Positions 1,942 through 20,418 of a stretch of 25,404 bases of DNA are shown here, piece after piece (positions within the stretch are counted from its first letter, which is position 1; each line of letters starts with the position of its first letter). The DNA comes from a virus, in the IMG/VR virus record IMGVR_UViG_3300035698_025845, positions 1-25,404 of that record. One strand, 5' to 3'. The translations under genes and the position numbers were made by a program. The notes below the pieces were generated by a model. The model ran no database searches. It saw only the letters and a program-made list of their open reading frames with translations, and had not been told where the DNA came from.

Positions 1942-1984
1942 AAAAAAACTGCCTAAAGCATAACATAATGCTCTAGGCGGTTTT
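1942..1984 (-). terminator. Intrinsic terminator overlapping the recombinase stop codon
   Basis: The arms 1945-1961 and 1968-1984 form a 17-position stem with one mismatch and one G-U, and a 6-base loop. On the minus strand it is followed by a run of U (the A-run at 1942-1948). The stop codon of the 1953-3587 gene (1953-1955) and its last ten codons lie inside the hairpin. T-rich sequence also follows it on the plus strand (1981-1991), so it may work in both directions. Confidence 0.8.
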
Positions 1985-3587
1985 CTATTTTTCTGACTAT
2001 GTAATTTACAAATAAAGACTTGGTTTTTAACAGTCCACTGCATTCGACATGTTTAATTCTAAACTCAATATTATTTTTGTTAATGACTGTGATTGATTTG
2101 ATTAACTCTCCAAGCAGAGAATCAAAATCGTTACTTTTTGCTTGCTTTAGTAAAATATTATTTATCGTGTTTTTCACTTGTTCAGGTTGGTAGGTTTTGG
2201 ATAGCTGATTGTTGATTGATGGTAGTTCTAGACTTGAATCATTTAGCTCATTATTGATTTCTTCCATCACTTTTAGTTCAAACTCGTTAATTGGATCAAG
2301 GAGTTGTTGCTTCTTTGCTTGTAAGCCGAGAATTTTGGCTTCAGTGGCTTCTTTAACAAGGAGTAAACTAAGTCTTTGCGGATTTGATTCAACAGCCTTA
2401 TAAACTAAGTTTAAGAAGTCTTTTTTATTACTTATAATGTATTTCAACTGATTTAGAATTGCCTTGTCTAAGATACTTACTGAAATGTTTTCACCTGGAC
2501 ATGTTTTAATCATTTTGTTGGAAGGACACATCATCATGTTTCTTGAGTATTCAGAGTTTGTGTTCTTTTTTCTGCGAATATAACTTTTACCGCAATATGG
2601 ACATTTTAACATCCCTGCATATTTGGTATGCTGATTGTACATGTCTTTATCAATCTTTTCAGAAGTAATATGATGAAACTTTTCAATTTGAGCTTTTCTG
2701 ATTTCTTGAGCTTTATTAAATAGTTCTTGGGTGACAATTGGCGGGTGAGAGTTTTCCACATAATACATGGGTAACGTTTCGTTTTTTACTTTGAGTTTTG
2801 CTTTAAAAGAAGGTCTAACTGTTTTTTGAAGGAGTGCATTACCCGTATATTTCTCATTCTTTAATATGTTATAAATCGCATTACCATACCATTTACCTTT
2901 GTTGTAAGTGGTTTTTATATTGTTTGAATTTAAGTGTCTGATAATTTCACTAACACCAATACCTGTCGTATACATCTCGTATATCTTTCTAACAACTGCA
3001 GCTTCATCTTCGTCAATAACCAGGTTCCTATCTTCATCATATTTATATCCAAGGAATCCTTTTGCTACAATATAGAACTTACCTTCAGAGAACCTCTTTC
3101 TAACATTCCATTTAACGTTTTCACTCACATTTCTTGCTTCTTCCTCAGCCATACCAGAAAGCACAGAGATGACGAATTCAATCTTAGGGTCAAAGGAACT
3201 AATATTCTCATTTTCAAACCACACCTCAACTTTTGCTTGCTTTAAGTTCTGAAGGATAGTGATTGTGTCCACAACGTTTCTTGAAAACCTGGAGATTGAT
3301 TTGGTAATGATGAGATCAATGAGTCCACTTTTAGCCATTCCAATCATTGTTTGAAATTGGGTTCTCTTACTCATGTTAGTTCCGGATTTGCCCTCATCAG
3401 CAAATACGCCTATGAAATTCCAGTCTGATCGCTCCATGATCATCTTTGTGTATGTTTGGACCTGGGTATCAAAGCTTAAGTGAGCAACATCTTTTAATGT
3501 TGAAACTCTAGCATACGCGCATACATTTTTCTTACGTACCTGATTATCAATTAGTGTTTCAATCGATGTGATTTCTCTAATGTCCAT
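1953..3587 (-). CDS. Large serine recombinase (second of a pair), 544 aa
   Basis: This is a site-specific recombinase of the resolvase/invertase superfamily, large serine type, expected to cut and join attachment sites through a phosphoserine link. The catalytic domain is at about residues 20-165: YARVS places the nucleophile at Ser29, followed by DEGKSGT and the ITKSISRFSRN arginine motif. A recombinase domain with KGFLGYKYD and NEKYTGNALLQK follows, then a zinc ribbon (KCPYCGK with two later cysteines) and a lysine-rich, probably coiled C-terminus. The usual STDxxxQ after the serine is altered to STLKDVAHLS. Its start lies within the end of the upstream recombinase gene (11-base overlap), implying coupled translation. 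Paired large serine recombinases recall ccrA/ccrB. It could be a partner subunit rather than an independent integrase. Confidence 0.93.
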   Translation of the reverse strand: MDIREITSIETLIDNQVRKKNVCAYARVSTLKDVAHLSFDTQVQTYTKMIMERSDWNFIGVFADEGKSGTNMSKRTQFQTMIGMAKSGLIDLIITKSISRFSRNVVDTITILQNLKQAKVEVWFENENISSFDPKIEFVISVLSGMAEEEARNVSENVKWNVRKRFSEGKFYIVAKGFLGYKYDEDRNLVIDEDEAAVVRKIYEMYTTGIGVSEIIRHLNSNNIKTTYNKGKWYGNAIYNILKNEKYTGNALLQKTVRPSFKAKLKVKNETLPMYYVENSHPPIVTQELFNKAQEIRKAQIEKFHHITSEKIDKDMYNQHTKYAGMLKCPYCGKSYIRRKKNTNSEYSRNMMMCPSNKMIKTCPGENISVSILDKAILNQLKYIISNKKDFLNLVYKAVESNPQRLSLLLVKEATEAKILGLQAKKQQLLDPINEFELKVMEEINNELNDSSLELPSINNQLSKTYQPEQVKNTINNILLKQAKSNDFDSLLGELIKSITVINKNNIEFRIKHVECSGLLKTKSLFVNYIVRKIENRLEHYVML

Positions 3588-5286
3588 CTTTGCCCTTGTC
3601 CATTTCTATAAGTCTCCAATTAATTTCATTACCATCATGAGTATAAGTGCCATTTAAGATGGGGAGATATTTTTTATATTTTTCTATTTCATCTCCAAAA
3701 TTAATAAATTCATCATCCGAACTTGAGGTTAGAAAGATAACTTCTGTTGGGGATGTGACAATGATTTTTTTTACCAGCATCATTAGTGCTTCCCTGCTGA
3801 TGATGTTTTGCTTTTCTTCTAAGAAGCTTTTGAGCTGAATGATGCGTTCCTTATTTAAATGTGAATCCATAAGTTTTGATTTGTAATCACTTAGTGTTTG
3901 ATTGAGTCTTTTGAGTTCAGCTTTTTTATCTAAAAATACGGATTGATAATATTTGTCATCATCTGTAGAAGTGCTTGATATTCTAAGCTGAATTAAATTT
4001 TTAATTTCATTTTCGATTGCTATGACTTGATGCTCTGCAGATTCAATCTGTTCTTTAATGATTGGCTGCGTTAGATTAGATTCTAGAAGTAGAAGTGTTT
4101 GATTCATAATCTCAGGTGCTTCTGAGTTGATTTCATGAAAGACATACGCACTCAGTGTTTCTAATAATTGATTATCAATTGGCGTGTTAGAACAACTGCA
4201 GTGTTGCTCCCTGCCATTCTTACAGCTTAATACAATTCTGTTATAGCTCGTATTTGGATTGTAGTGCTGTCTATTCATTTTTCTATGACAAATCCCACAA
4301 TAGACAATGCCACTTAAAGGATATCTATTGGCAAACCTAGAAGAACCCTGCTGCATGCTGCGTTCCTTTTTAATATTTTGTACAATCATAAAAAGTTCTT
4401 TAGAAATGATCGGTTCATGATTATTTGTTATGTAATATTTAGGTGCTTGGCCAGTGTTTACAACTGATTTATGTGTTAGATAGTCTATGGTGACTCTTTT
4501 TTGCAAAATGACGTCTCCTGAGTATTTCTCATTGGTCAGGATAGACATAACAGTCGCTGGTTTCCAGAAAACCTCACCACGTCCATTTTTGATGTTGTTA
4601 TCTGTTAACATATTCGCTATATCCCTGGTTGATGAACCAGATAGATAAAGGTTAAATATTATTTTGATAATCTTGGCTTCCTCTACGTTAATAATAATCT
4701 TTTTATTTTCATCTTTGTCATAACCTAAAAATCTTTTTGTATTGATATGAACAATCCCTTCTTTAAATCGTTTTCTAAATCCCCATTTGACGTTCTCACT
4801 GATGTTTCTTGATTCTTCTTGAGCAATCGATGAAAATATTGTCAGCATAAAATCCACTTTAGGATCACTTGAGTATAGATTCTCTTTTTCAAAGAAGATC
4901 TCAACACCAACACCTCTAAGCTCTCTAATCATGGTTAGGCTATCGACAGTGTTTCTAGCAAAGCGTGAAATTGACTTTGTTAAGATTAAATCAATCTCTC
5001 CTTCTTTAGCATCATCGATCATCTTTAGAAACTGCAATCTTTTTTTCGTGCTCGTTCCAGATAAGCCCTCATCAGCGTACATCCCTTGAAATATCCATAG
5101 TTGGTTTTCGTTAATAAGTCTCGTGTATTCATGAATTTGTGCTTTGTAACTATTGATCTGATCTTCTTGATCTGTAGAGACGCGTGCGTAGGCGCATACC
5201 CTTTTCTTTTTGATCCCTTGAGATGCACCAAGATCAACACTATGTAATATAGGGTTAATCACGGTGACTTTGCGTTCTATCATCAT
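3577..5286 (-). CDS. Large serine recombinase (first of a pair), 569 aa
   Basis: The protein has all signs of a large serine recombinase: YARVSTDQEDQ with the nucleophile at Ser37, DEGLSGT, LTKSISRFARN, a recombinase domain with KRFLGYDKD and NEKYSGDVILQK, a zinc ribbon (YCGICHRK, then paired cysteines) and a C-terminal helical region with coiled-coil character. AAGGAGG ends six bases before the first ATG, supporting that start; a second ATG follows at once. It leads a two-gene unit with the 544-residue paralogue, which shares the same architecture but is clearly diverged. A short peptide gene and the phage repressor lie upstream on the same strand, the usual setting of a phage integration module. 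The attachment site would be expected near this block. Confidence 0.94.
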   Translation of the reverse strand: MMIERKVTVINPILHSVDLGASQGIKKKRVCAYARVSTDQEDQINSYKAQIHEYTRLINENQLWIFQGMYADEGLSGTSTKKRLQFLKMIDDAKEGEIDLILTKSISRFARNTVDSLTMIRELRGVGVEIFFEKENLYSSDPKVDFMLTIFSSIAQEESRNISENVKWGFRKRFKEGIVHINTKRFLGYDKDENKKIIINVEEAKIIKIIFNLYLSGSSTRDIANMLTDNNIKNGRGEVFWKPATVMSILTNEKYSGDVILQKRVTIDYLTHKSVVNTGQAPKYYITNNHEPIISKELFMIVQNIKKERSMQQGSSRFANRYPLSGIVYCGICHRKMNRQHYNPNTSYNRIVLSCKNGREQHCSCSNTPIDNQLLETLSAYVFHEINSEAPEIMNQTLLLLESNLTQPIIKEQIESAEHQVIAIENEIKNLIQLRISSTSTDDDKYYQSVFLDKKAELKRLNQTLSDYKSKLMDSHLNKERIIQLKSFLEEKQNIISREALMMLVKKIIVTSPTEVIFLTSSSDDEFINFGDEIEKYKKYLPILNGTYTHDGNEINWRLIEMDKGKDGH

Positions 5287-6875: not shown

Positions 6876-7811
6876 ATGCTCGAAAAAGAGAGGTTTAAGG
6901 AACTCACCCAAAAATATCTAGAATATCTAGATGTGAAGATTCCTACTAAGATAACCTATGCGAGGATCCTTCGTCAATACGTCGATTATGTAGACACACT
7001 ATCTGATTTACCAACTCGTAGTGATGTTATGGCATATAGAGAGAAACTTAGAACAAGAAAATTGAGCGCAACAACGATTGCGTTACACATGGTCATCATC
7101 CGGAATTTTTATAGATGGTTTCATATTGAAGGATATGGTTCAAGTGTTGCAGAGGGGATTAAAAGTCCTAAAATTGAAAAAGAATTCAAACGTTCAGCAT
7201 TAACAGAAGAACAATCAAAAAGACTTCTTCAATTTGCTTATAAAAAATCTAGTAGTTCAATTATTGATTTTAGAAACTATACCTTAGTATCTTTAATGAT
7301 TACAACAGGTATGAGAACCATTGAGGTAGAAAGGGCAGATAAATCAGATATTAGCGAATTAGACGGCGGATATGTGTTATTTGTTATGGGTAAAGGAAAA
7401 GATACTAAAAATGCAGTCATTAGGTTATCACCACAAGTCTATGACTTAATTGAGGCCTATATTATTATACGAAACGATCAAGCAGAACCATTATTTATTA
7501 ATCACAAGGGCATATACGCACATAATCGTATGGTAACAAGAAATATTCGGTTTGTTATTAAAGAAATGTTTAGGGATATCAATATCGATGATAAGCGCTA
7601 TTCAGCTCATAGTTTGAGACATACCACGGCCACTTTGTCACTTGATGAAGGCGCCGGCACAGATGAAGCACAGTTGCTCTTAAGACATTCAGATCCAGCA
7701 ACAACCAAGCTTTACTTGCATCGTAAAAGAAAAAAAGATGGTTTTTACGAATATAAGATTAGTGATAATTTGTTTGATTTTTTAGTAGTTGAAAAGGAAG
7801 AAAAGGAATAA
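6876..7811 (+). CDS. Tyrosine recombinase (phage integrase family), 311 aa
   Basis: This is a XerC/D-like site-specific recombinase that would act through a 3'-phosphotyrosine link. Residues 1-95 form a SAM-like N-terminal DNA-binding domain (ITYARILRQYVDYV, LSATTIALHMVIIRNFYRWF). The catalytic residues are visible: Arg147 in TGMRTIEV, Lys173/175 in GKGKDTK, His245-x-x-Arg248 in AHSLRHT, His271 in LLLRHSDPATT and Tyr280 in TKLYLH. AGGTG lies six bases before the ATG. It sits between the Cro-like gene and the antirepressor on the early strand, not in the lysogeny block, and the element already encodes two serine recombinases. It may serve genome dimer resolution, a second integration pathway or a nested element. 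Confidence 0.93.
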   Translation: MLEKERFKELTQKYLEYLDVKIPTKITYARILRQYVDYVDTLSDLPTRSDVMAYREKLRTRKLSATTIALHMVIIRNFYRWFHIEGYGSSVAEGIKSPKIEKEFKRSALTEEQSKRLLQFAYKKSSSSIIDFRNYTLVSLMITTGMRTIEVERADKSDISELDGGYVLFVMGKGKDTKNAVIRLSPQVYDLIEAYIIIRNDQAEPLFINHKGIYAHNRMVTRNIRFVIKEMFRDINIDDKRYSAHSLRHTTATLSLDEGAGTDEAQLLLRHSDPATTKLYLHRKRKKDGFYEYKISDNLFDFLVVEKEEKE

Positions 7812-10272: not shown

Positions 10273-10297
10273 CACCAAAGTTATCTTTGATTGCTCC
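10273..10297 (+). repeat. 25-bp perfect direct repeat (block 1), left copy
   Basis: This 25-base block, CACCAAAGTTATC followed by TTTGATTGCTCC, occurs again without change at 13055-13079, in the same orientation, on the other side of the methyltransferase-nuclease cassette. A perfect 25-base repeat in non-coding DNA 2.8 kb apart suggests duplication or a recombination site. Confidence 0.8.
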
Positions 10298-10319
10298 GTG
10301 GGCTATATTGTCCTATGGT

Positions 10320-10340
10320 GTCCTATAAAAGGTATGTTGA
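10320..10340 (+). repeat. 21-bp near-perfect direct repeat (block 2), left copy
   Basis: GTCCTATAAAAGGTATGTTGA matches 12971-12991 at 19 of 21 positions, same orientation. On the left, block 2 follows block 1; on the right it precedes it. The short motif TGTCCT occurs twice near each copy. Confidence 0.7.
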
Positions 10341-10529: not shown

Positions 10530-10544
10530 ATTGATTGAATCAAT
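10530..10544 (+). promoter_or_regulatory. 15-base palindrome at the start of the methyltransferase cassette
   Basis: ATTGATT-G-AATCAAT is a perfect 7-bp inverted repeat with one central base, ending three bases before TTGAGGGG, the ribosome binding region. It could be an operator for autoregulation of the cassette, for instance by the methyltransferase itself, or chance in AT-rich DNA. Confidence 0.4.
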
Positions 10545-10561
10545 AATTGAGGGGAAAATTT

Positions 10562-11764
10562 ATGAGCAAAAAAACCAATGGAGTAAATGATGAATTTTAC
10601 ACGCCAGCAGAAACAATCATAAATGAATTGAAATGGTATGGATATGATGGAGAATTCAAAGGTAAGACGGTATATCTACCATGTGATTTTGATGCAACGT
10701 TACCATATTTGAAAAAAGAAATAAAACATGTCAAGACAATTGATGGTTTTTTAGAATTTAATGAGGAAGTTATTATTTATAAAGTTATGCCAGAACTTTT
10801 TACTGAAAAAGACAAAAATAATACACCAAGAAATTGTCAATTCGTTGCATATTTAACGGAACACAAAGAAGATTTTCACATAAAAGATATTTTCATAAGT
10901 GGATTTGATGCAATTACTGGTAAGGGGTTAAGATTTCAAGATGCCCCATTTGAGCAATTTGATGTAATAATTACAAACCCACCCTTTTCACAAATGAATG
11001 AATGGATTAATAAAATTATCGAGTTTAAAAAAACAGGTGGAGAATTTCTGTTCTTAGCTCCTTTGTCAATTCTTACAAATACTTTTGCCTTCCCCTACTT
11101 TAAGGGCCAGGATTTATGGTGTGGATATACTGAACCTAGCAAATATGAAGATGCAAAAGGTAATTTAGTTTCTCAATATTTGCCATCTGTATGGTTAACC
11201 AATTTTGATGTTAAGAAACATAAACTTAAAAGGATACTAACGAAAAGTTGGAAAGATAAACCTGATGAGTTTATGCCTTATTGGAACTATGAAGCAATAA
11301 ATGTACCAAGTGTAATTGATATACCTTATGACTATTCTGATGTATTTGGAGTTCCAGCAACCATGCTGAAGGATTTGCATCCCGATCAATTTGAGATTAT
11401 TGGTCTTGGTCAAGGGAAAGAACAATTTCAGTCATTGCCTGGATGGATAGACAGGTCTAATTGGACATTTAAGGATTATATGGAATATGCTGATACTCCA
11501 AAGACTGCACATAGTTTTGATGTATCTAGTCTGCTAATAATCTCAAAAGACCTTATTAATCCCTATAAGGCACCATTTTGCAAAGTTCTGTTAAAGAATA
11601 AAGAATTGATTGAGGGAAGAGAATATTACACTTACAAAGATGTAGTTAGTTTTGTCGAAGATCAATCTAAGATAAAATCGCCTGATGATATATGGAATCC
11701 TAAATTATTCAAAACACGAGGGAATCAAAAAGCCAAACAAGGTAAAGGAGATGGAAAAAAATGA
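10562..11764 (+). CDS. EcoRI-type adenine-specific DNA methyltransferase, 400 aa
   Basis: This enzyme would transfer a methyl group from S-adenosylmethionine to adenine N6 in a specific DNA site. The N-terminus (NGVNDEFYTPAETIINELKWYGYDGEFKGKTVYLPCDFD) follows the pattern of the EcoRI methylase family. The catalytic motif is FDVIITNPPFSQ with NPPF at residues 139-142. The C-terminal 200 residues, rich in aromatic residues, probably carry target recognition. I chose the ATG at 10562 because GAGGGG lies seven bases upstream; the TTG at 10547 is part of that site. It is longer than M.EcoRI (326 residues). Its stop overlaps the ATG of the DUF262-HNH gene by four bases (ATGA), so the two are translationally coupled and probably form a restriction-modification unit. 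Confidence 0.88.
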   Translation: MSKKTNGVNDEFYTPAETIINELKWYGYDGEFKGKTVYLPCDFDATLPYLKKEIKHVKTIDGFLEFNEEVIIYKVMPELFTEKDKNNTPRNCQFVAYLTEHKEDFHIKDIFISGFDAITGKGLRFQDAPFEQFDVIITNPPFSQMNEWINKIIEFKKTGGEFLFLAPLSILTNTFAFPYFKGQDLWCGYTEPSKYEDAKGNLVSQYLPSVWLTNFDVKKHKLKRILTKSWKDKPDEFMPYWNYEAINVPSVIDIPYDYSDVFGVPATMLKDLHPDQFEIIGLGQGKEQFQSLPGWIDRSNWTFKDYMEYADTPKTAHSFDVSSLLIISKDLINPYKAPFCKVLLKNKELIEGREYYTYKDVVSFVEDQSKIKSPDDIWNPKLFKTRGNQKAKQGKGDGKK

Positions 11765-12945
11765 AAAGAGAAATCACAAGTTTTTCAGTTGAAGAAATAA
11801 CAAAACTGATTAAGCTGAACCCTGCTACACTGGAAACATTACCTGACACTATAATTAAAGTAAATATTGAATATCAGCGTGGCGTAATCTATTCAGCAGA
11901 AAAGCAAGCCGCAGTACTTGAAAGTATTATTAAGGATTTTGCAATTCCCTCTATAGTACTTTGGAAAAACATTGAAGATGATACCTATGATGTTATTGAT
12001 GGAAAACAAAGATTAACAAGTATATTTTTATTTTTAAGTGGAAATCTTCAAATTAATTACATCGGAAATACGAAAAAATATTATTCTCAAATTAGTGAAG
12101 TTGACAAAAAGAAAGTCAAAGAATATCAAATACCATTTATTATAATGAGTGGAACAAAAGAAGAAGAGCATTTTAAACATGAATTGTTTGAAATCTTAAA
12201 TATAACAGCAGAGAGTTTAAATAAATGGGAATTACTGCAAGGATCTTATTATGGAAATTTTTTGAACACGTTCAAAGAAGAAATTCAGAATCCATTAAAT
12301 GTTGAAATTCAAAATGATTTTAATTTTAGAGATAAGAGTGTACCAGCAAGAGCTAGATATTCTGGGGTTTATAAGTTACTGTTAATTCATCTTGATTCAG
12401 AAAATGAAATAAAAAAATTCGTGGAAACCCATCGAGAAGATAGTGGACAATTATTCTACAATAAGGAAATAAAGAGTGTCTTAACAGAAATTAGTAAATT
12501 GCCTGAACCTAGAAATGTTGCAATTTATTATGAGATAATAAGAGAAATATTAGGAGATAATACAAAATATAAGAATTACAATTCAAAAAGAAATGAAGTA
12601 ATTACGGACTTAAAAGGTTTCTATGCTGAAAATGTTTATACGAAAATTACTGGAAATGATTTAAGAATCGTACTTAGAAATATATTTGGATTAGAGTGTG
12701 GTTTTGTAGAATTGGACCCAAAAAGGATTTTTAACCAAACTGATAGGGATGACTTGTATAAAATTTATGATGCCAAAAGAAAAACCGAAAATGGATTAGT
12801 TCGGTGCCCTAAATGTGGTAAACTTTTTGACCATAAAGCAATGCATATTGATCACGTAATACCTCACAAACTAGGAGGAAGAACGGAACTAGTTAATGCG
12901 CAATTTTTATGTTCACATTGCAATCCAAGCAAAGGCACAAACTAA
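11761..12945 (+). CDS. DUF262 + HNH nuclease, probable restriction enzyme, 394 aa
   Basis: The N-terminal domain is of the DUF262 (GmrS/ParB-like) type: YQRGVIYSAEKQAAVLESIIKDF (from residue 39) and the hallmark YDVIDGKQRLTSIFLFL with DGKQR at 80-84, thought to bind or hydrolyse nucleotides in this family. The C-terminus is an HNH nuclease with zinc-binding pairs: CPKC (349-352), HIDHVIPHKLGG with the catalytic His365 region, Asn379 in LVNAQFLC, and CSHCN (384-388). GmrSD, BrxU and SspE join DUF262 to a DUF1524-type HNH; here the HNH is the short, zinc-ribbon type. It starts inside the stop of the EcoRI-type methylase. Most characterised DUF262 nucleases cut modified DNA; the cognate methylase suggests this one cuts unmodified DNA, which is inference. 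Confidence 0.88.
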   Translation: MKREITSFSVEEITKLIKLNPATLETLPDTIIKVNIEYQRGVIYSAEKQAAVLESIIKDFAIPSIVLWKNIEDDTYDVIDGKQRLTSIFLFLSGNLQINYIGNTKKYYSQISEVDKKKVKEYQIPFIIMSGTKEEEHFKHELFEILNITAESLNKWELLQGSYYGNFLNTFKEEIQNPLNVEIQNDFNFRDKSVPARARYSGVYKLLLIHLDSENEIKKFVETHREDSGQLFYNKEIKSVLTEISKLPEPRNVAIYYEIIREILGDNTKYKNYNSKRNEVITDLKGFYAENVYTKITGNDLRIVLRNIFGLECGFVELDPKRIFNQTDRDDLYKIYDAKRKTENGLVRCPKCGKLFDHKAMHIDHVIPHKLGGRTELVNAQFLCSHCNPSKGTN

Positions 12946-12970
12946 AAAATGTCCTCTACTTTCCCACCAT

Positions 12971-12991
12971 GTCCTACAAAGGGTATGTTGA
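12971..12991 (+). repeat. 21-bp near-perfect direct repeat (block 2), right copy
   Basis: GTCCTACAAAGGGTATGTTGA matches 10320-10340 at 19 of 21 positions. It starts 26 bases after the DUF262-HNH stop codon. Confidence 0.7.
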
Positions 12992-13054
12992 TGGACAAAA
13001 GAACACTTTTCAGTGTTTTCATCAAAAAGTGCGAATTTATTTGTGCTACTATGA

Positions 13055-13079
13055 CACCAAAGTTATCTTTGATTGCTCC
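13055..13079 (+). repeat. 25-bp perfect direct repeat (block 1), right copy
   Basis: Identical over 25 bases to 10273-10297, same strand. It lies 63 bases beyond block 2, whereas on the left side block 1 comes first. Confidence 0.8.
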
Positions 13080-16081: not shown

Positions 16082-17212
16082 ATGCAAAGAATAACGAGTG
16101 AATCTGTTTTTAGTGGACATCCTGATAAAGTCTGTGACCAAATCAGTGATGCTATTTTAGATGCAATATTAGAACAGGATAAAGAATCAAGAGTAGCGGT
16201 TGAAACAGCTATAAAAGATAATTTTGTTTTTATCTTTGGTGAGGTAACAACAACAGCTTATATTAACTATAAAGCAGTAGCGAAAACTGTACTTAAAGAT
16301 ATTGGATATGACGATGAGTTTGTTGTTATGGAACTCATCAGTAAACAATCACCAGATATTGCGATTGGTGTAAATGAATCATCATCTAAAGAACAAGGTG
16401 CAGGTGATCAAGGGATCATGTTTGGTTACGCATGTAATGAGACAAAAGAATTGATGCCACTACCAATCATTCTTGCACATCGAATTTCAAAAGGTATAGA
16501 TAAAGCAAGAAAAGAAAAATACGGACATATTTTTGGACCAGATGGTAAATGTCAAGTTAGTGTTGATTACAAAGATGGCAAACCACATAGCATTCCTATA
16601 GTTGTTGTTTCTGCACAAACCAAGCCTGGAGTAACAAGGGAAGAATATGAAAAAATCATCATGGGTATTGTGTTAAACTCAATGGATCAAGAAGATCTAA
16701 TCAAAAAAACAAAGATCTTGATAAATCCAACAGGGGAGTTTGTGATTGGCGGTCCTAAAGCAGACTCAGGATTAACAGGCAGAAAGATTATTGTTGATAC
16801 GTATGGTGGATACTCCAAACATGGAGGAGGTTCTTTCTCAGGAAAGGACGTAAGCAAGGTTGATCGCAGTGCGGCTTATTATGCCAGATACGTAGCAAAA
16901 GCCGTTGTAGCGGCAAATTTAGCGACACACTGCGAAGTTAGTTTAAGCTATGTGATTGGGAAAGCTGATCCAACAAGTATACTGATAAATACTTTTGATA
17001 CAGGCGTTACCGGTGATGATGAAATACAAAGTTTAGTTGAGTTTGTGTTTAACTTCAAACCAGGATCAATAATAAAAGAACTTGAGCTAAGCAATGTCAA
17101 GTTTAAAGAGTTAGCAAAATATGGTCATTTTGGCAGAGTTGATTTGCCTGTTAGATGGGAGCATGTTAAAGATAAAGCAGCTCTATTAAAACGATTTTAT
17201 GAAAAAACCTAA
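16082..17212 (+). CDS. metK: S-adenosylmethionine synthetase (methionine adenosyltransferase), 376 aa
   Basis: This enzyme makes S-adenosylmethionine from methionine and ATP. The family signatures are intact: GHPDK (12-16), GAGDQGIMFGYA (106-117), GGGSFSGKD (248-256) and the following DRSAAY, and the length is close to the usual 380-400. AGGAGGAG lies six to seven bases before the ATG. The gene lies in phage context, between small phage genes and an HNH nuclease whose start overlaps its end by 14 bases, so it is phage-borne rather than the host housekeeping copy. The window carries two DNA methyltransferases that would use its product. It may also offset S-adenosylmethionine depletion by phage or host enzymes. 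I see no missing catalytic residue. Confidence 0.96.
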   Translation: MQRITSESVFSGHPDKVCDQISDAILDAILEQDKESRVAVETAIKDNFVFIFGEVTTTAYINYKAVAKTVLKDIGYDDEFVVMELISKQSPDIAIGVNESSSKEQGAGDQGIMFGYACNETKELMPLPIILAHRISKGIDKARKEKYGHIFGPDGKCQVSVDYKDGKPHSIPIVVVSAQTKPGVTREEYEKIIMGIVLNSMDQEDLIKKTKILINPTGEFVIGGPKADSGLTGRKIIVDTYGGYSKHGGGSFSGKDVSKVDRSAAYYARYVAKAVVAANLATHCEVSLSYVIGKADPTSILINTFDTGVTGDDEIQSLVEFVFNFKPGSIIKELELSNVKFKELAKYGHFGRVDLPVRWEHVKDKAALLKRFYEKT

Positions 17213-17536: not shown

Positions 17537-18820
17537 ATGAATAAAAAAGTAATTGTGTTTGACACAAATGCGCTATTAGATATTTATCAATATACAAATC
17601 AAACCATAGAGCAAATTGTTAATTTTTTTCAAAGTCAAAGTGAGTATGACTTGTATATTTCATCTTTTGTACATGAAGAATTCAAAAATCATTATTTAGA
17701 GGCCCGTAGTAAGAGTGGTAATAGAAACCCTATACTTAAATTTAAATCTAAATTCAATGGTTTTCATAATTCAACATCAGTAAAAATAAATGATTTGATA
17801 AATGATAAATCATATAAAGGCTATAAGACTAATATCGAAGCAGGACTTATTGATCTAAGAGAAAAGGTATCGGTAGGGTTGAATGATCTAAAAAATGAAA
17901 TAGAAAGCTTGTATAGTATCGAAGATATCGGTTATTCTGGAGATGATTTAATATCTGATTTAGTTAATAGTGTGTACGCTAAATGCAATGCTAACAAATA
18001 TAATATTCATGAAAAAATATTCATGTCCATTATTGCTGACCAACGAATCAAGTTAAACCTAAGACCGGGACTTACGGATTTGAAAAAAGAAGGATTTAGG
18101 AAATATAGTGATATATTTATATGGTTGGATTTAATAAAAATCTCAAAAGACTATGATGAAGTTGTATTTATTGAGAATGAAATAAAAAAAGACTGGTGGG
18201 AAAATGATAGTTACAAAGAACCTGCTGATAATATAGTTAGAGAATGGGAAGACTTATTTGACGAGAAGAAGACTCTCACTATGATTAGGCTAGATGCTTT
18301 ACTGATTAGTCAAGCCGAAGCTTATTTAGATGGTGATGCACAATTAGAAATTACTCGATTAGCATCTGAATTTCTCAAATCAATAAAAACCAAATCGATG
18401 TTTTTGAACTTACCTGTTAATGATAGACTAGGTGACTTTGCACCAAATGATATTGACTTCATTTTGTTGGGAGAAGAACTAAATGGAGGGAATATTGATG
18501 AAATTGAAGTTTTAGAAATGTTAGAACCTGAAACGTTGACTAATGATGTGAGATTTCAATATGATAGTACCACAAGAACACTCTTTGCCGAAACTCAGGT
18601 GAAAGTACCATATATTGTTAACGTGATTAATTCATTTGGAAGATATTCAACGCCAGAATATTATCATGGAACAGTGTATATTACTTTTAACTGTGAATTT
18701 GAGTTCTACTTAATTACTAATAATGACCTAGAGTATTACTTGAATTCTGTTAGATATGATATACATAAAACAAGTGTTGATATTAATGAGTTGAAGGCAT
18801 CGAACGTGTATGATGATTAG
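17537..18820 (+). CDS. PIN-like (DUF4935/PIN_8 type) protein with C-terminal extension, 427 aa
   Basis: PIN-like proteins are metal-dependent RNases. The first strand VIVFDTNALLDIYQY carries Asp9 and Asn11; SSFVHEEFKNHY gives Glu47/48; and LRPGLTDLKKEGFRKYSDIFIWLDLI plus VVFIENEIKKDWW (209-221) match the PIN_8 signature PPGxxD...YGDLIIW...FVTDDxKxDWW, with GD changed to SD and TDD to ENE. Residues after about 230 form an extension with an acidic linker and a beta-rich end. GAGGTG lies seven bases before the ATG and an extended -10 promoter precedes it. Similar PIN proteins occur in phage-defence islands. It is inserted between the HNH and small terminase genes with a kinase-like gene, and probably acts as accessory cargo. 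The altered acids may weaken or retune activity. Confidence 0.8.
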   Translation: MNKKVIVFDTNALLDIYQYTNQTIEQIVNFFQSQSEYDLYISSFVHEEFKNHYLEARSKSGNRNPILKFKSKFNGFHNSTSVKINDLINDKSYKGYKTNIEAGLIDLREKVSVGLNDLKNEIESLYSIEDIGYSGDDLISDLVNSVYAKCNANKYNIHEKIFMSIIADQRIKLNLRPGLTDLKKEGFRKYSDIFIWLDLIKISKDYDEVVFIENEIKKDWWENDSYKEPADNIVREWEDLFDEKKTLTMIRLDALLISQAEAYLDGDAQLEITRLASEFLKSIKTKSMFLNLPVNDRLGDFAPNDIDFILLGEELNGGNIDEIEVLEMLEPETLTNDVRFQYDSTTRTLFAETQVKVPYIVNVINSFGRYSTPEYYHGTVYITFNCEFEFYLITNNDLEYYLNSVRYDIHKTSVDINELKASNVYDD

Positions 18821-18924
18821 CCCCCCCTAGTCTTAGCAAGATATTTTTGTTGGGTACCGTACAGGTGGGCAATTAAAATACACAAGGCATAATTTTTGAA
18901 AATTAGGAATTGAGGGTCAGTTAT
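18821..18924. other. Gap with C7 run between PIN-like and kinase genes
   Basis: A run of seven C directly follows the TAG stop of the PIN-like gene, unusual in this AT-rich DNA, and a relatively GC-rich GGGTACCGTACAGGTGGG follows at about 18852-18869. CATAAT at 18888-18893 is a weak -10. This may mark a junction of the insertion. Confidence 0.35.
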
Positions 18925-20418
18925 ATGATTGAGAAGGAATCTTTTTATAAATTTATTGATTATCTTTATGAACATTTTCTTGTAGAAAAATCAGACGAAA
19001 CTAATTGGGTTTATTCTGGTTTCATTTTTGATTATATATATGAAAATGGAATATATAAGGATGAGTATTTTTCAGTAGAAGATTATTTTTACATCAAAGT
19101 TGGAATGCAATATGATGAATCAATAGATTTACATCAGTATTTTAATGATAAATCCGAAGATAAAATCATTTTATTTATTGAGAGTATTTATAACTTATTC
19201 GACAAATTTGGCGACAATGAAAAGTACCAAAGTTTTTGTAATAAAATCATTAAAATGTTGAATAGAAACAGTCTAAACATTTTGTCAGACACAATTTACT
19301 CAAGAATCATATCGAGCAATTCAACTAAAGAAGGATATTTTTGTGTAGTTGAATTTATTAACGATTTTATTGTAAGGAAAAAATTAAAACCACATATGAT
19401 TTCTGATGATACAATAAGTCGCTTCAAACATGAATACAAAATGATGGAAAAATTATCTCAAAACACTAAGTTTTTGAAAGTGTATGATTATAACCAAGAA
19501 ACGAATAGTTATTTTATGGATCGTTGCGATATGGATTTGTACGATTATCTAAAAGAAAACAAGTTGGATGAAAAGAGAAAAGTTGAGTTAATTAAACAAA
19601 TGATTGATTTAATGGACGTTGCATATGGACAAAAAATAATTCATAGAGATTTACATCTTGGAAATTTGTTGGTCCGTGGAAGTCAACTTTTCATATCTGA
19701 TTATGGTCTTGCAAAAGACAGCGATGTCAAACGCTCGCTTATCTCTTCGACAGGACCCAAAAACGATCACTTTTTTGTTTCACCTGAAGGTATGAAAGAT
19801 ATAAAGCAAGTAGATGTTAGAAGTGACATTTACTCCATTGGAAAAATTATTGATTACATAATGGGGAATGGAATATTGGGCACAAATCATTTTTTGTTAC
19901 CCGTAGTTCACAAGTGTATAATGATAGAAAAAAGCGACAGGTACTCAGATTATAAGTCACTGATTCATGCTCTCAACAATATCATTGATGTAACTACAAA
20001 TGGGCAAAATCATTTGTTGGTGCTGAATAACATCATTAATGGTGAGTGTAATGAGCTTGAAGTGCAATTTCTAATGGATTTGTCAGAACATGCAATAATT
20101 GCAAAGTTTTTGGTTGATAATCACTTGAAAAATTTCCATACAGTTTTTAATAAACTTCAATATTCATTACAGTTGAACATGATTGATTCAATTGCTGCTC
20201 ACTTTGTGGATGCCACGGGATACGGCCAATTCCAAAATTACGACATTTTTGGAGAGTTTGCATATCAAATCATTCTTAATGGCAAAGTTCAAACAGATAT
20301 TTTAATTAAAGCTGCTAATATTTTGAAAGTCTGTGCAGGATATAGATTTTCATTTAAAGATAAACTCGATTCATTACAGCTAAACCCCAAAGTAAACAAC
20401 TCAATATTTAATAATTGA
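18925..20418 (+). CDS. Protein-kinase-like protein with helical flanks, 497 aa
   Basis: A eukaryotic-type Ser/Thr kinase domain lies at about residues 135-350: a possible ATP-binding lysine in FIVRKKLKP (153/155), Glu170 of helix C, the catalytic loop IIHRDLHLGNLLV (HRD at 240-242), the metal-binding DYG (259-261) in place of DFG, SPEG (286-289) in place of APE, and VDVRSDIYSIGKI with Asp301. Residues 1-130 are helical and may sense or bind a partner; the C-terminal 140 residues also look helical. No membrane segment or PASTA repeat is seen, so it is not the PrkC type. The ATG at 18925 has GAGGG eight bases upstream; TTG at 18910 is part of that site. It follows the PIN-like gene and its stop overlaps the TerS region. 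Phage defence or exclusion is the likeliest role. Confidence 0.85.
   Translation: MIEKESFYKFIDYLYEHFLVEKSDETNWVYSGFIFDYIYENGIYKDEYFSVEDYFYIKVGMQYDESIDLHQYFNDKSEDKIILFIESIYNLFDKFGDNEKYQSFCNKIIKMLNRNSLNILSDTIYSRIISSNSTKEGYFCVVEFINDFIVRKKLKPHMISDDTISRFKHEYKMMEKLSQNTKFLKVYDYNQETNSYFMDRCDMDLYDYLKENKLDEKRKVELIKQMIDLMDVAYGQKIIHRDLHLGNLLVRGSQLFISDYGLAKDSDVKRSLISSTGPKNDHFFVSPEGMKDIKQVDVRSDIYSIGKIIDYIMGNGILGTNHFLLPVVHKCIMIEKSDRYSDYKSLIHALNNIIDVTTNGQNHLLVLNNIINGECNELEVQFLMDLSEHAIIAKFLVDNHLKNFHTVFNKLQYSLQLNMIDSIAAHFVDATGYGQFQNYDIFGEFAYQIILNGKVQTDILIKAANILKVCAGYRFSFKDKLDSLQLNPKVNNSIFNN

Follow-up and report, generated by a model that had tools for sequence, protein, structure and literature searches.

Two genes that lie side by side in a viral genome, one for a predicted EcoRI-type DNA methyltransferase (MTase) and one for a nuclease with a DUF262 domain, raise the question of whether they form a single restriction-modification (R-M) unit and which of the two proteins sets its target. 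They lie in an IMG/VR virus record of 25,404 bases, which was analysed at full length and is called the window here. The features on which the analysis turns are as follows.

10273..10340, + strand: left flanking repeat unit, candidate left edge of a cassette (25 nt exact and 38 nt imperfect)
10562..11764, + strand: gene for an EcoRI-type (PF13651) predicted N6-adenine DNA MTase of 400 aa (PF13651, E 8.3e-40)
11402..11581, + strand: MTase block (aa 281-340), hypervariable by column entropy and proposed as the target recognition domain (TRD)
11761..12945, + strand: gene for a nuclease of 394 aa, with a DUF262 domain (GmrSD_N, ParB/Srx-like NTPase fold), a helical middle domain and an HNH domain (PF03235, PF01844)
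11998..12012, + strand: DGKQR NTPase motif of the nuclease (aa 80-84), DGQQR in 182/186 relatives
12805..12942, + strand: C-terminal zinc-ribbon-like HNH of the nuclease (CPKC..DH..GG..N..C..CN..K, aa 349-394; PF01844/PF14279)
12954..13079, + strand: right flanking repeat unit, candidate right edge of the cassette (direct repeats)

The two proteins and their phage setting

The MTase gene runs from an ATG at 10562 to a stop at 11764; a TTG at 10547 is an alternative start, and position 10530, at which the earlier note had begun the pair, is just upstream. Its product matched PF13651 with 137.6 bits (curated cut-off 26.4) and the PADLOC family MTase_II PDLC03297 with an E-value of 9.8e-35; there was no NCBIfam match call, and a PDB sequence search found no relative. 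The protein carries the motifs DEFYT and TNPPFS, and T138, N139 and P141 are kept in 186/186 non-identical pairs of relatives. Its AlphaFold model (pLDDT 80) resembles class I adenine MTases, with residues 12-268 matching the catalytic domain of M.TaqI (Z 9.5). From the NPPF motif and this fold, adenine N6 methylation is predicted.

The nuclease gene starts with an ATG at 11761, overlaps the MTase gene by 4 nt (ATGA) and stops at 12945. Its product matched PF03235 (GmrSD_N) over aa 37-216 with an E-value of 2.2e-16 (61 bits, cut-off 33.2) and the HNH families PF01844/PF14279 over aa 349-394 at about 1e-10 (PF01844 7.2e-11); the profile search gave no match to DUF1524 (PF07510). D80, G81, Q83, R84, H365, G372, G373 and N379 are kept in all 186 pairs, and Q39 and R40 in 185/186. 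A PDB sequence search returned only HNH or partial DUF262 matches. The AlphaFold model (pLDDT 83) was most similar to BrxU (Z 8.3), with further matches to SspE (Z 7.0, 126 aa), ParB/Noc and the HNH nickase 4h9d, and a weak match to DndI (Z 5.1). The domain assignments of both proteins are far beyond chance, and they confirm what the earlier note had read from the letters, namely an EcoRI-methylase type protein with TNPPF and a DUF262 protein with DGKQR and a zinc-ribbon HNH.

The record is a temperate tailed phage genome. Its left part holds recombinases, a repressor and a Lin1244-type replication gene, its right part TerS, a ParB-MTase, MetK, an HNH gene, TerL and the portal gene, and the MTase and nuclease pair sits between the replication gene and TerS. 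The right-hand genes are syntenic in those relatives, found through TerL, that are long enough to show it. The pair was absent from 80/80 of these phage relatives, although many of their contigs end before the site (only 29 extend to TerS). With that qualification, the idea that the pair is a phage core gene was rejected; from its distribution it looks like phage cargo, plausibly serving the exclusion of competitors. The left repeat unit (10273-10340) is repeated directly at 13055-13079 (25 nt, 100%) and at 12954-12991 (38 nt, 76%), and the repeats stand on either side of the pair with their order reversed, like marks at the edges of an exchanged cassette. A megablast search with the window found no related phage record.

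The phage has other features of its own. Two large serine recombinases adjoin at 1953-5286 on the - strand with an overlap of a few bases, and there is a tyrosine recombinase at 6876-7811 besides. An S-adenosylmethionine synthetase, MetK (16082-17212; TIGR01034 8.7e-142), lies beside the ParB-MTase fusion and is present in 52/80 of the TerL-found relatives. A PIN_8-domain protein and an Stk2-like Ser/Thr kinase (17537-20418; PADLOC Stk2 1.7e-57) are inserted between HNH and TerL, an interval that varies among relatives, with Stk2 in 2/80. This is likely a second cargo site, and the kinase is likely an abortive-infection kinase.

Pairing of the nuclease with the MTase

When single window proteins were used as queries, no relatives were found in genome or viral contigs, because the window pair is divergent; the nearest paired relatives of its MTase (L185-L187) are 29-36% identical to it. 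Alignment queries did find relatives, which we collected by nuclease-seeded and MTase-seeded scans of genome and viral contigs. The counts come from top-scoring or pattern-seeded sets and describe this subfamily, not all DUF262 proteins. A same-strand MTase stood beside the nuclease in 154/160 nuclease-seeded loci from genomes and viral contigs. Among the six others, five start at a contig end or no farther than about 100 nt from one, and in the sixth (L076) the contig stops 125 nt past the nuclease. A set of 295 Bacteroidales genomes, drawn evenly, gave 30 matches, 29 of them with an MTase and one a fragment at a contig start. The MTase-seeded scan found the nuclease in 42/78 loci and the MTase alone in 36/78. 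Furthermore, the distance matrices of the MTase core and the nuclease were correlated at r=0.81 over 186 pairs, with a permuted maximum of 0.095. Chance pairing of the genes was rejected by the 154/160 and 29/29 counts and by this mirror correlation.

The usual order in relatives is MTase first, with the same short overlap. The pair also occurs in a Flavobacterium phage, in faecal phages and on plasmids of Bacillota, Actinomycetota, Pseudomonadota and Bacteroidota. Judged by these comparisons, the MTase and the nuclease are one conserved, co-inherited and widespread cassette whose catalytic motifs are intact, and the MTase as obligate partner of the nuclease is supported. The view in the earlier note that the overlapping genes form one unit thus held in the search across genomes that it had proposed.

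In six loci the MTase is broken and the nuclease ORF intact, and in four the reverse holds. The former include Chryseobacterium (L016), Microbacterium (L019) and Rothia (L049) assemblies; in L019 the MTase fragment adjoins an IS256 copy. These counts do not suggest a freely lethal nuclease, although sequencing errors or MTases acting in trans are possible.

In an Enterococcus dispar plasmid (L010), MTase and nuclease are separated by the optrA resistance gene, and in an Aerococcus plasmid (L021) optrA lies beside a truncated nuclease. In L108/L241:2862-5067 the order is reversed, with the nuclease before the MTase and a silent TRD cassette after the MTase.

A variable and sometimes invertible block in the MTase

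Across 186 pairs the hypervariable C-terminal block of the MTase reached an entropy of about 3.1 bits per column, whereas the 20-aa blocks on its two sides had 0.94 and 1.34. The nuclease had no hypervariable block (maximum entropy 2.2 bits). The block is bordered by conserved QFEIIG and CKVLLKNK in the window and by QFEI(I/L)G and YxRIxIRxK in the family. In M.TaqI the DNA-recognition domain lies after the catalytic domain. Because the block is placed after the M.TaqI-like catalytic region, and because of the pattern of exchange described below, we consider that it is probably the TRD.

In Bacteroidales relatives this block can be inverted, and silent cassettes, inverted repeats and a tyrosine recombinase go with it. 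Silent copies on the opposite strand lie beside the MTase in ten loci, which with L264 counted represent at least seven lineages. Invertible cassettes lie at L008:2190-2582 and L051:3573-3969, and also in L098, L105, L108, L111, L113, L118, L148 and L264. Several of the silent cassettes share 82-88% identity with TRDs that are expressed at other loci. Seven regions were examined for repeats, and in these the QFEI codons coincide with inverted repeats of 15-42 nt. Downstream of the nuclease, the Phocaeicola lineage and the loci L098, L123 and L264 have a tyrosine recombinase gene, with a gap of 38-76 nt in the six loci measured, and homologues of it among about 290 loci occurred only in loci with silent cassettes. 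In the Phocaeicola loci the nuclease is separated from the silent TRD cassettes by a gene for a Bro-N domain protein (L051:4109-4957).

Two Phocaeicola massiliensis records, L008 and L051, capture both states. The segment between 22-nt inverted repeats is reversed in one relative to the other, and the flanks are 99.6-99.8% identical. The MTase cores (330/330) and the nucleases (393/393) are identical, and the expressed TRDs share 18% identity. Similarly, L111 and L113 have nucleases identical at 392/393 positions and TRDs 8% identical; these nucleases are 98.5-99.7% identical to that of L008 and L051. Switching of nuclease cassettes was rejected, as no inverted nuclease cassette was found in the flipping loci. 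A megablast search turned up no further phage copy of the invertible locus.

We also compared nuclease and TRD sequences in 16,653 locus comparisons among the 186 pairs, in which locus pairs are non-independent. At matched MTase-core identity, most bins showed equal nuclease identity for pairs with the same TRD and pairs with different TRDs; in the 0.65-0.70 bin, for example, the nuclease middle domain gave 0.578 for same-TRD against 0.592 for different-TRD pairs. In the 0.7-0.9 core bins, same-TRD pairs had slightly more similar nucleases in all domains. Partial rank correlations between nuclease and TRD were about -0.05 to -0.01. By this comparison the nuclease sequence does not track TRD identity; a determinant of a few residues would be missed by it, a weakness from which the L008/L051 flip is free. 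A nuclease with a fixed site would not survive the flip, except where the old and new TRDs share one recognition site. One pair of loci is an exception: between L005 and L006, the C-terminal third of the MTase and the middle and HNH domains of the nuclease changed together, with DUF262 unchanged. Such a joint change would be expected if these regions of MTase and nuclease meet in a physical interface, or if the nuclease of that lineage contributes to specificity.

The window MTase has the same TRD borders and no silent cassette, and the flipping relatives are about 25% identical to the window nuclease. We infer by homology, from the same domain order and the same TRD borders, that MTase-carried specificity extends to the window copy.

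How the pair may choose its target

The MTase alone probably sets the target. In the best reading of the comparisons, it would be the specificity subunit, with the nuclease acting through the MTase or its mark, like Type III systems or DndI. More specifically, we put at about one half the chance that the pair is an R-M operon carried as phage cargo, in which the MTase TRD sets specificity and the nuclease is targeted through a complex with the MTase. The MTase would methylate host and phage DNA at the site set by the TRD. The nuclease, lacking a fixed sequence specificity of its own, would be brought to its target in a complex with the MTase, much as Res and Mod act together in Type III systems, and its NTP-binding DUF262 domain would license nicking or cleavage by the HNH domain at unmethylated sites. 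A single site-specific flip would then re-program methylation and restriction together, with the nuclease unaltered. For the window phage the gain would be a lysogen, and its own methylated genome, protected against competing phages and plasmids, and such protection is the likely benefit.

Type III systems hold specificity in the modification subunit and keep a constant nuclease, and the flip, the variable block and the lack of tracking suggest that the pair may be organised alike. However, Res is a helicase-type protein with a PD-(D/E)xK nuclease, whereas the nuclease here is DUF262-HNH, and hence the pair is not classed as Type III; neither the MTase nor the nuclease matched an SF2 helicase translocase domain. 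Phase-variable Type I systems with invertible hsdS switch TRDs by recombination, as the flipping relatives do, but unlike Type I the pair has no separate S subunit. We are evenly divided on whether the family is a distinct R-M architecture, in which the specificity of a ParB/Srx-fold NTPase-HNH nuclease would be set solely by one EcoRI-type m6A MTase, through a plug-in TRD that can be inverted in some loci.

The constant nuclease beside a changing TRD would also be accounted for if the nuclease reads a mark, in the manner of DndI and SspE. Its DUF262 domain would sense the N6-methyladenine that the MTase places in host DNA, NTP hydrolysis would free the nuclease from self DNA (or activate it), and unmarked DNA would be nicked without a matching site. 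The earlier note had described characterised DUF262 nucleases as responding to modified DNA, or to phosphorothioation in the case of SspE, and as not paired with an EcoRI-like methylase. That account was incomplete, as SspE and DndI are DUF262-HNH nucleases that have cognate DNA-modification genes as partners and leave self DNA uncut (PMC9646914, PMC11662687). The pair shares with them the DUF262-HNH plan, the modification genes at its side and the NTPase motif DGQQR, and both are matched by the nuclease model, as given above. SspE senses phosphorothioate via Y30/Q31 near the NTP pocket, and YQR is near-invariant here, a candidate equivalence drawn from the motif. In SspE and DndI, however, the modification is phosphorothioation by Ssp or Dnd proteins, whereas that of the pair is predicted base methylation by one MTase; the pair differs further in its exchangeable TRD and in another HNH family, and no dnd or ssp genes were found among the window proteins scanned. 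Moreover, hosts and phages commonly carry m6A, and a context-free reader of it would therefore discriminate poorly. Because the partner was always of the PF13651 MTase family, in every informative sampled locus, a specific protein partnership is favoured, and we prefer targeting through an MTase complex; mark reading we rate as a possible but doubtful alternative.

Classical Type II R-M, in which nuclease and MTase independently recognise the same site and methylation blocks cutting, is less probable still, and we regard it as unlikely. Both parts are already catalogued as Type II enzymes in PADLOC-DB (version 2.0.0): 21/21 nucleases tested matched REase_II PDLC03418 (best E 3e-142) and 18/18 MTases tested matched MTase_II PDLC03297 (best E 1.5e-124), with the window nuclease a distant PDLC03418 member (77 bits, aa 32-172). 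The suggestion of a new type by combination alone is therefore not supported. A Type II system likewise consists of an MTase gene and a separate REase gene that belong together, and the tight pairing with frequent lone MTases, together with the joint change between L005 and L006, agrees with this label. The label presumes, however, that the nuclease has independent specificity, and the natural TRD flip beside an identical nuclease argues against that, as do the lack of a hypervariable block in the nuclease and of any tracking of the TRD by its sequence. The intact nuclease ORFs in the six broken-MTase loci, read with the reservations given above, would also be disfavoured by a lethal free nuclease. 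The same flip and lack of tracking argue against the earlier note's classical protect-and-cut pair, taken as two independent site-specific enzymes. M.EcoRI itself belongs to the PF13651 family, but the partner here is a DUF262-HNH nuclease, and the annotated neighbourhoods contained no EcoRI-type endonuclease. The pair is an R-M-type unit that most likely departs from classical Type II logic.

A Type IV-like nuclease that attacks modified DNA, with the MTase an unrelated or immunity neighbour, is highly improbable: its nearest characterised single-chain fold relatives, BrxU and GmrSD, do attack modified cytosine DNA, but an MTase adjoining the nuclease in essentially every locus and the mirrored phylogenies argue against an independent nuclease of this kind, and its nuclease domain is a PF01844-type HNH without a DUF1524 match. 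GmrSD and BrxU share with the window nuclease a DUF262 NTPase-like N-domain and a His-Me finger nuclease; they are about 580 aa long against 394 aa and have DUF1524, whereas the window nuclease has a PF01844/PF14279 HNH and an obligate MTase partner. An analysis of the GmrSD family reported Type I R-M genes as common neighbours, and the sections of it consulted make no mention of a PF13651 MTase (PMC4619093).

In the open-access papers searched we found no experimental paper on the PF13651 and DUF262 pair and no invertible EcoRI-type TRD; an earlier description of either is possible. What appears to be new is the exchangeable specificity carried by the MTase and its programmed flip. If our reading is correct, a large family filed as Type II works otherwise, with the nuclease lacking a site and following a swappable MTase domain. 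It would link the modification-sensing DUF262 nucleases (GmrSD, BrxU, SspE and DndI) to specificity sharing of the Type I and Type III kind, and it would provide a compact restriction system of two genes whose target could be changed by swapping about 60 residues. The invertible Bacteroidales loci would then be phase-variable restriction systems outside Type I.
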